Positions 5,308 to 7,932 of a DNA stretch of 20,158 nt are shown here, one piece after another. Position numbers and translations under genes: made by a program. Location of the stretch: IMG/VR virus record IMGVR_UViG_3300021185_000055, positions 1-20,158 of that record. One strand, 5' to 3'. A model generated the notes under the pieces. That model worked only from the letters and a program-made list of their open reading frames with translations. It did no database searches and had not been told where the DNA came from. Origin of the DNA: a virus. Positions within the stretch are counted from its first letter, which is position 1. Every line of letters begins with the position of its first letter.

Positions 5308-6247
5308 TCTAATAGATATGTTGCAGTACATGCGACCTGAAGGTGCTAAGACACAGAAAGAATTTTGTCTTGAGTATCTCGAACCTGTGTTCGGTAAGCC
5401 TGACCCCTATGGTAATTACATACACCAAGTTGGTGTTAAGCCACGTCTATGCTTCACAGCACACCATGACACAGTACACAAGGCTGAGGGTATGCAGAAA
5501 GTTGTTGTCACTAACAACATAATATCTGTAGCTGACCCCAAGGTATCAAGCTGTCTAGGTGCTGACTGTACCACAGGCATATGGCTTATACTCAAGATGA
5601 TTGATGCAGGTGTTGAGGGTACATATGTAGTTCATGCAGCTGAAGAGATTGGTTGTCAGGGTAGTAAGGCATTGGTCTATGACAATCCACCTTGGTTAGA
5701 TCACACTGATGCTGTTATATCTTTCGACAGGTATGGTACTAAGTCTGTGATCACACACCAGATGGGTATGCGTACTGCATCCAATGAGTTTGCTAAATCA
5801 TTTGCTACTGCACTAAGTCTACCACAGCTAGTAGCTGACGATGGTGGTTCTTATACAGACAGCAATGAGTATGCTCACCTAGTACCTGAGTGTACTAACA
5901 TCAGTGTAGGTTACTACAACCAACACACAGCCAAAGAGACACAGGATATGTCTTATGCAGAGCTGTTACTCAGTAGCCTACTACAAGCTGACTGGACAAA
6001 GATTGTCATCAAGCGTGACCATACCATACAAGAGTGTATCTACACTAAGTATGCAATGAATGATGACTACTATTACTCTAACAACCCTGACTCTACAGAA
6101 GAGATTGTCAATCTAGTATTAGATTATCCTGATAGGATTGCTGATATGCTTGCTACCTATGGTTATTCTGCAGAAGAAATCATGAGAGAGTGTAACATCT
6201 CACCCGACTACTACATCAATGACTATGTAGCTACTCGTTATATGTGA
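5297..6247 (+). CDS. M28/M42/M20-type zinc metallopeptidase, 316 aa
   Basis: The protein keeps the full co-catalytic metal set of the M28/M42/M20 peptidase clan: H56-x-D58 (HHDT), D90 (LGAD), E116-E117 (AAEEIG), D144 (SFDRYG) and H210 (NQHTAKE). The family cleaves N-terminal amino acids or small peptides using two zinc ions. There is no signal peptide, so it would act in the host cytoplasm. A C-terminal extension of about 80 residues after 235 is Tyr- and Asp-rich and falls outside the core. The start at 5297 is preferred over 5279 because AAGGAAA (5284-5290) is correctly placed for it. It overlaps the Cys-rich protein gene by 11 bases. Aminopeptidases are unusual in phage early regions, and the substrate is unknown. 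The superfamily call is firm; the subfamily is not. Confidence 0.8.
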   Translation: MKNNLIDMLQYMRPEGAKTQKEFCLEYLEPVFGKPDPYGNYIHQVGVKPRLCFTAHHDTVHKAEGMQKVVVTNNIISVADPKVSSCLGADCTTGIWLILKMIDAGVEGTYVVHAAEEIGCQGSKALVYDNPPWLDHTDAVISFDRYGTKSVITHQMGMRTASNEFAKSFATALSLPQLVADDGGSYTDSNEYAHLVPECTNISVGYYNQHTAKETQDMSYAELLLSSLLQADWTKIVIKRDHTIQECIYTKYAMNDDYYYSNNPDSTEEIVNLVLDYPDRIADMLATYGYSAEEIMRECNISPDYYINDYVATRYM

Positions 6248-6258
6248 CACGTTGTCAC
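6244..6258. promoter_or_regulatory. Dyad GTGACA-CGT-TGTCAC overlapping the peptidase stop
   Basis: A perfect 6-bp inverted repeat with a 3-base centre spans the TGA stop of the peptidase gene. It could be a protein-binding site or a short hairpin that stabilises the message end. No T-run follows, so it is not a terminator. It opens the control gap before the integrase. Confidence 0.4.
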
Positions 6259-6296
6259 GGAGGGTTGATTAATTTTAAATAATATGTATTTTATAG

Positions 6297-6373
6297 TACT
6301 TAAAGTATACTTAAAGTAACCTTAAGTTTCTATTAATACTTATAAATAATAATACTTTAAGTAACTTTAAGTA
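6297..6373. repeat. Opposed pairs of an 11-bp repeat (TACTTAAAGTA) upstream of the integrase
   Basis: TACTTAAAGTA occurs in tandem at 6297-6307 and 6308-6318. A diverged copy (ACCTTAAGTTT) at 6319-6329 keeps the 11-base period. The reverse complement TACTTTAAGTA lies at 6353-6363 and AACTTTAAGTA at 6363-6373. The last copy runs into the integrase ribosome binding site (AAGGAAAG). Helically phased, opposed pairs beside an integrase gene fit integrase arm sites, excisionase sites or an autoregulatory operator. A weak promoter (TTGATT at 6265-6270) may also lie in this gap. Confidence 0.6.
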
Positions 6374-6382
6374 AGGAAAGAT

Positions 6383-7471
6383 ATGAAGTATACGATAAAG
6401 ACTACTCGTAAAAGTGGCGGTACGTCTTGGGTCTTTAGGCCACCACAAGATGCTGTATCAGCAGGTATAGTTAAGTCTCAAACATTTAGAGATGGACGTA
6501 CTGCAAGAGTAGAGATACCTAAACTGCTAGATAAGATAGATGCCTTTCGTAGAGGTGAGTTAGTAGCAGGTGATATAGGTAGACTATCAAACCTTAATCA
6601 GATAGTGACTTACTACTTAAAGACAAAGCACTTTAATTCTTTGTCGCCCAATACTCAAGATAACTATACTCACAACCTTAAGTGTATCTGTCGTACAGAA
6701 ATATATGGTAAAGAGTTTGGTAGTTTTAGAATTGACAGGGTTACAACTCCAGTATGTACTGAAGCCTACGATGCTTGGGAAGAAGATGTAAGTACCAACA
6801 CAGCTAATGAGTACAGTAGGTCTCTGTCTATGATCATGAACTACTGTCGTTCACTAGACATTGTTAACAACAACCCTGTTACCCATGTTAATAAGAGAAC
6901 TCATGAGACACGTTCAACTATATGGAATAATGAACAGGTTGAAAAGTTCTGTGATACAGCCTTCTCAGATTTTAAGTTTAGGAACATAGGTCTGTGTGTA
7001 CTGATGGCCTATGAGTGGGCGCAAAGACCTATTGATATCTACACTCTTAAATGGGACAACATACATTTTGATATCAACATGGTAAAGATACGTCAGAGTA
7101 AACGTGGTGCTACAGTTGAGCTACCATTAGAAGAACCTTTGACTTCCATGTTACTACAACAGAAAGGTGACTGGGACTTCCAAGAATATGTAGTACCTTT
7201 TCAGAGGCCTTCAGATGGGGCATACAGGGCGTTTGATCATGCCTCTGCAGGTGTACTAGTCAGGGAGATCAAGGAGCTATCAGGGCTACCTTCTGATCTA
7301 CGTGTGGGTGATCTTAGAAAGACAGCCATCAACCAAATGATTGACAGTGAGATAGACCACCTTGCAATCATGTCTGTTACAGGGCATAAGAATGTGGCAA
7401 GTCTTAACCCATATGTTAAACACAATTTAAAAGCGGCTAAGTCCGCATTGAATAGGAGAAGTAAGAGTTGA
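6383..7471 (+). CDS. Tyrosine recombinase (phage integrase), 362 aa
   Basis: The catalytic domain shows R215 (AQRPIDI), K240 in the beta-hairpin (QSKRGA), the box II stretch G309-D310-L311-R312-K313, H335 (TGHKN) and the nucleophile Y344 (PYVKH). The usual box II reads H-x-L-R-H, so the first His is Gly and the residue after Arg is Lys. The N-terminal region (about 1-60) would be the arm-binding domain and about 70-170 the SAM-like core-binding domain. The enzyme would insert and excise phage DNA at an attachment site. AAGGAAAG precedes the ATG. The repeat array just upstream probably belongs to its att site or regulation. No tRNA-like att core was found. The stop overlaps the HNH start (TTGA). 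Confidence 0.9.
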   Translation: MKYTIKTTRKSGGTSWVFRPPQDAVSAGIVKSQTFRDGRTARVEIPKLLDKIDAFRRGELVAGDIGRLSNLNQIVTYYLKTKHFNSLSPNTQDNYTHNLKCICRTEIYGKEFGSFRIDRVTTPVCTEAYDAWEEDVSTNTANEYSRSLSMIMNYCRSLDIVNNNPVTHVNKRTHETRSTIWNNEQVEKFCDTAFSDFKFRNIGLCVLMAYEWAQRPIDIYTLKWDNIHFDINMVKIRQSKRGATVELPLEEPLTSMLLQQKGDWDFQEYVVPFQRPSDGAYRAFDHASAGVLVREIKELSGLPSDLRVGDLRKTAINQMIDSEIDHLAIMSVTGHKNVASLNPYVKHNLKAAKSALNRRSKS

Positions 7472-7932
7472 GTATAAGAAAACATATTACTATGGAAGAA
7501 AGAAAACACTTAAGTCTACCTCTAAAGTATGGGGATACTAGATCTGATGGTGCTATGTTTATATCTTATTATTACAATATAAATACTAACACTAATTATA
7601 AATCAAGACCATTAGAACAATGGATTGTTAAAGAAAACATAGAAAAACAAAGACAAACTAAAGCTGAACATAAAAGAAAAACTTCAATAGCTAATAGAAA
7701 TTTTATTAAGAGGTTAAAAAGGCTTTATGGTTGTTCTGTATGTGGTTACAAGAAATCTTTAGATGCACTTTGCTTTCATCATATACGTGATAAGAAATCT
7801 ATAGTAAGTAGGATGCTACAGTACTCAAGGAAATCTTTAAAAGAAGAAATAAGAAAGTGTATATTAGTATGTCATAATTGTCATAGTGAAATACATGAAC
7901 AACAAAGAAACAACCAAAAGGAGAATGAATAA
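7468..7932 (+). CDS. HNH endonuclease, probably homing-type, 154 aa
   Basis: The Zn-supported HNH fold is visible: C89-x2-C92, the H104-H105 pair, N137, and C135-x2-C138 with H139 and H143. The Lys/Arg-rich region at residues 55-85 would bind DNA. The TTG at 7468 is favoured because AGGAG (7454-7458) sits about 9 bases upstream and because TTGA overlaps the integrase stop; an internal ATG at 7492 is the alternative. Arg codons are nearly all AGA/AGG and the gene is more AT-rich than its neighbours, which use many CGT codons, suggesting recent acquisition. Free-standing HNH genes of this type are commonly mobile in phages. Confidence 0.8.
   Translation: MSIRKHITMEERKHLSLPLKYGDTRSDGAMFISYYYNINTNTNYKSRPLEQWIVKENIEKQRQTKAEHKRKTSIANRNFIKRLKRLYGCSVCGYKKSLDALCFHHIRDKKSIVSRMLQYSRKSLKEEIRKCILVCHNCHSEIHEQQRNNQKENE

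Follow-up and report, generated by a model that had tools for sequence, protein, structure and literature searches.

The window analysed here, which is the whole stretch of 20,158 bases that makes up one virus record, encodes an integrase, ThyX, a helicase-primase, polymerase A and a ribonucleotide reductase. The integrases that best match that of the window are those of the CRP phages and of HMO-2011, with about 30–40% identity, and from these matches and the gene content we infer that the window is part of the genome of an uncultured HMO-2011-like podophage. Phages of the HMO-2011 type have been described as dominant and widely spread in the ocean (PMC9038755).

The tyrosine integrase (6383–7471, plus strand, Pfam PF00589) is the first gene 3' of an array of short repeated sites, the presence of which does not require the integrase. 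Some integrases of the group, among them that of the window (6383–6580), have about 65 additional residues at the N-terminus, which match no Pfam domain, and others lack them. The genome is very compact outside two long ORF-poor stretches (1–813 and 1030–1651), which lie between a second array, predicted off the window, and the first early gene.

Sites and promoter upstream of the integrase

The array consists of operator-like sites read on the plus strand: two tandem copies of TACTTAAAGTA (6297–6307 and 6308–6318), a decayed third site, ACCTTAAGTTT (6319–6329), in place of which the form-B relatives have TACTTTAAGTT, and, beyond an AT-rich centre (6330–6352), two more sites, TACTTTAAGTA (6353–6363) and AACTTTAAGTA (6363–6373), which have one base in common. 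The Shine–Dalgarno sequence AAGGAA begins at 6373 and the ATG of the integrase is at 6383. The 11-bp repeats that had been noticed beside the integrase, reaching up to its ribosome binding site, are therefore confirmed. The centre, which is the apex of the dyad, differs among relatives, with the complementarity of the arms kept.

The exact motif ACTTWAAGT occurs at 6298, 6309, 6354 and 6364 and nowhere else in the whole 20-kb window, and every place in the window that matches the 11-mer with at most one mismatch is inside the array. When the region is compared with its own reverse complement, the match is 75% over 77 bp (E 5e-7). The array is also the top dyad of the window, with a score of 19, the maxima in 20 block-shuffled windows being 12–17.

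The unit, TACTT-W-AAGTA, is palindromic except for its odd centre base, so that "direct" and "inverted" copies differ in this single base. The original prediction described opposed pairs of repeats in helical phase. The copies are indeed there on both sides, but their opposed orientation rests on the centre base, which is identical in the left and right copies of the close relatives L002–L006 and L008. As for the phasing, the repeat spacing inside each block is 10, 11 or 12 bp in relatives; across the centre of the integrase-side array the helical phase does not hold, because the spacing there varies from 20 to 55 bp (38 bp being the commonest value).

The feature reaches left of the array to a promoter-like pair (6265–6292), made of the -35-like hexamer TTGATT (6265–6270, plus strand), which reads TTGA[C/T] in relatives, and, 16 nt further on, the -10-like hexamer TATTTT (6287–6292, plus strand). 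The latter is weak in the window and better in relatives, many of which have TATAAT or TATTTT at this place; a stricter consensus promoter scan did not report this -10 in the window. In 58 of 60 relatives, TTGA[C/T] is found in the 60 nt that precede the array, and the mean promoter score upstream of the array is 9.8, compared to 7.8 in shuffles. The first site is near the predicted transcription start. Further upstream, a palindrome, GTGACACGTTGTCAC (6244–6258), is found at the stop codon of the peptidase gene, and its TGACA..TGTC pattern is conserved in many relatives.

Relatives and the second array

Relatives were gathered by using the integrase and the M28-peptidase-like gene located upstream as queries, which gave 74 distinct peptidase–integrase intervals. 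At least one exact site is present at the same place in 70 of them. The usual order is TTGAC, about 17 nt, an AT-rich -10, two sites, an AT-rich dyad, two sites, then either a ribosome binding site or a complete tRNA-Arg(TCT), and then the integrase. Where extra genes have been inserted after the peptidase (L106, L126 and L206), the array remains with the downstream operon. No array was found with the more distant integrases (L113, L115–L123, L125 and L130–L132), nor in the cultured HMO-2011, CRP and ctYwJ313 genomes, which contain 0–3 isolated sites each.

The complete tRNA-Arg(TCT) is found between the array and the integrase in L038 (6066–6142), L042 (6063–6139), L040, L041, L043, L044, L046 and L047; its anticodon stem shows paired changes among the relatives that carry it, and the lineage of the window seems to have lost it. 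Hairpins that could cover the Shine–Dalgarno sequence of the next ORF occur just 3' of the array in L066, L068 and L083, and likewise in L121 and L200 (TATAGGTTCC..GGAGGTGCCTATG; ATACTTCC..GGAGGTAT). A short conserved ORF (MDDPHDDCTHWIGKI) overlaps the start of the integrase, between the tRNA and the integrase gene in L042 and others, and upstream of the integrase gene in L014 and L015; its DDPHD.STHW motif is found again in CRP-2 and CRP-603.

A scan of whole records revealed a second cluster of sites in every near-complete genome. The 12 relatives in which both regions were read (11 cluster-scanned regions and L023) all carry two arrays; in L023, a close sister of the window, exact sites are at 1713–1797 and 7784–7850. 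The second array is 6.0–6.7 kb upstream of the integrase-side array, on the opposite strand, and the two promoters face outward. The leftward promoter has TTGAC[A/C/T], 16–18 nt and a perfect TATAAT in 13 cases out of 13. The first site of this copy is mostly 0–3 nt past the -10, and in most genomes the two sides of the centre are spaced by 44 bp. A conserved 84-aa protein is encoded first in the leftward operon, a GH108 endolysin being among the other products. From an alignment to L214, the second array of the window would sit about 190–285 bp left of window position 1. In L215, L217, L221, L222, L224 and L225, perfect inverted repeats of 7–9 bp flank the leftward -10 box, and their sequences differ from phage to phage.

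Copies from the same genome are no more alike than copies taken from different genomes. Concerted evolution of the paired copies within a genome is thus not seen, which suggests that it is constraint, not recent duplication, that maintains the motif; both arrays seem to be kept in this way.

A putative operator at two outward promoters and its rivals

The interpretation towards which we lean is that a shared multi-site operator, bound by a putative phage regulator, is present in two copies at two outward promoters, the array being one of these copies. Each copy would be a row of palindromic ACTTWAAGT sites with a repeat of 10–12 bp, which runs from the -10/start region of the promoter to about 75–105 bp downstream, the integrase-side copy serving the rightward promoter, that of the integrase/replication operon, and the second copy the leftward one, that of the operon that contains the endolysin. 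A regulator encoded by the phage could bind both arrays cooperatively and block or time the two outward promoters jointly, in the manner of lambda CI at OL and OR; it may be that the two copies also contact each other by looping. We infer binding and repression from what was computed, namely the sites, the promoter positions, the paired copies, their conservation and their independence of the integrase. Sites that are 3' of the -10 suit repression or a road-block better than activation, and tandem palindromic sites together with the near-constant 44-bp spacing of the second copy would suit a DNA-binding oligomer. On the other hand, the variable spacing at the centre of the integrase-side copy and the weak -10 of the window count against an operator, and the relatives L107, L147 and L199, in which the motif is lost and arm complementarity is retained, are not explained by a sequence-specific operator alone.

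That the repeats could be an operator which shuts off the integrase had been suggested at the outset. The operator-like character stands, but a switch specific to the integrase does not: control of the integrase only is rejected, since the array is kept in relatives that have no integrase and since a second copy is found at another promoter, 6.0–6.7 kb away.

The 71-aa HTH_39 protein is a weak candidate for the binder, since it does not track the arrays: homologues are present in the array-less cultured phages L014, L015 and L017, and none was found in many array-bearing loci, most of which cover only part of a genome. Relatives of a 179-aa early protein, encoded between the two copies, are found in 10 of 12 regions; the structural model of this protein (mean pLDDT 81) gave no significant fold match. 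That neither protein points to a regulator counts against the operator reading. No CI/Cro-like protein was seen in the region.

The main rival to an operator is a role of the element as RNA or as a cruciform. The transcripts of both promoters could carry at their 5' end a hairpin that acts in cis and serves, for instance, for put-like antitermination, for processing by RNase III or for protection of the 5' end by its stem; the repeats would then be secondary. We regard this as unlikely. Nearly all relatives have a single long hairpin, whose folding z-score is about -6 in several of them, in 22 of 24 loci no other dyad is as strong as the array, and transcripts from both promoters would start at or within the hairpin. 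The arms covary: when 3' arms were swapped among 25 representatives, none of 5000 permutations reached the observed pairing, whether for the whole hairpin, its outer part or its apex. These arm-permutation tests were used in place of an alignment, since MAFFT/RNAalifold gave no consensus on the hairpins, the AT-rich apex being misaligned.

However, the apex test is weaker with 8 representatives (142/5000), the fold of the window itself is modest (z -2.6), and neither strand folds better after clustering (p 0.26–0.47); in the strand test that opposes G–U to A–C pairs, the raw counts of 83 to 51 are not significant once clustered. Rfam 15 has no match in the window, and in the relatives it matches the tRNA only. 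Nor does an RNA stem give any reason for the presence of at least two tandem copies of a palindromic motif in each arm. The covarying arms are located on either side of the -10 box in several second copies, which leaves one arm untranscribed from the leftward promoter; the corresponding inverted repeats are phage-specific (CACGAAGT/ACTTCGTG, CTCAGAGT/ACTCTGAG and GCGTAATGT/ACATTACGC). Last, the correction of imperfect palindromes by template switching could also produce arms that covary, and is another possible source of the paired changes.

We give even less credit to a variant in which the element is recognised by both its structure and its sequence, as a long palindrome present at both main promoters that forms a cruciform or a hairpin for protein-independent antitermination, and whose arms change in pairs so that the fold stays. 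If this were true, an abundant group of marine phages would have a control element close to its promoters that matches no Rfam family.

It is improbable that the sites are the iterons of a replication origin, in which an initiator would bind the palindromic repeats and the AT-rich centre would melt. The repeated sites do surround a centre that is nearly devoid of G and C, and the integrase-side copy precedes the genes of ThyX, the primase-helicase and the polymerase, but the second copy heads the leftward operon that contains the endolysin, both copies are fixed at the start regions of promoters, and no initiator gene was recognised.

The explanation that fares worst, and which we hold to be very improbable, is the first alternative of the original prediction, an attP with arm-type integrase sites around a crossover core at 6330–6352: as in the attP of other tyrosine integrases, short repeats flank a centre on either side, next to the start of the integrase, but the array is kept without integrase in six records, occurs twice per near-complete genome when a single attP is expected, has inner sites at variable spacing (20 to 55 bp), and is present in many relatives whose integrase is devoid of the N-terminal 65 or so residues. 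The six records are L167, L169 and L173, which retain the array and the tRNA, and L196, L202 and L207, in which other genes separate the array from the downstream primase-helicase; a search of the whole records (52 kb for L169, fragments of 9–15 kb for the other five) found no PF00589 domain. Moreover, the only attP that has been mapped experimentally in the group, that of CRP-3, overlaps the 3' end of a tRNA-Met (PMC6918029). According to the published primers, its position is about 1.7 kb 3' of the integrase gene, where the 3' end of the tRNA is visible and no array is present. Among the 84,980 bacterial and archaeal genomes scanned, there is one relative of the integrase, on a MAG contig that has no array at this place, and no prophage of the group was found. 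As a caution, an array of repeats next to an integrase gene need not be an attachment site.

We return to a putative operator shared by the two promoters. The conserved paired system is operator-like, and we found no mention of it in the literature examined. A single motif present at two outward promoters offers an entry to the regulation of HMO-2011-type phages, with the motif as a bait for the regulator and the promoters as reporters.

Comparison with known systems

The put sites of HK022 and the nut sites of lambda are RNA-level elements located just 3' of the two main promoters. Like them, the element described here is found at both promoters and can fold as a hairpin. However, tandem palindromic DNA motifs make up its arms, which form one long stem, some of the arms are 5' of the transcription start, and there is no preference for one strand.

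The lambda operators OL and OR are described as two groups of three operators each, separated by about 2.3 kb (PMC5880393). The likeness to OL/OR and CI is one of layout: two multi-site clusters of short palindromic sites, kilobases apart, are located at two outward promoters, over the transcription start, where binding would block RNA polymerase. The sites differ from the 17-bp sites of lambda in being 9–11 bp long and nearly contiguous, the copies are 6.0–6.7 kb apart, and the sites run 3' of the start instead of lying between -35 and -10. No CI/Cro-like gene was recognised in the region of the arrays, and an endolysin is part of the operon that the leftward promoter serves. Since no repressor was found in this region and the operator is a putative one, we do not claim membership of the OL/OR type; what is common to the two systems is the arrangement of clustered palindromic sites over the starts of two outward promoters.
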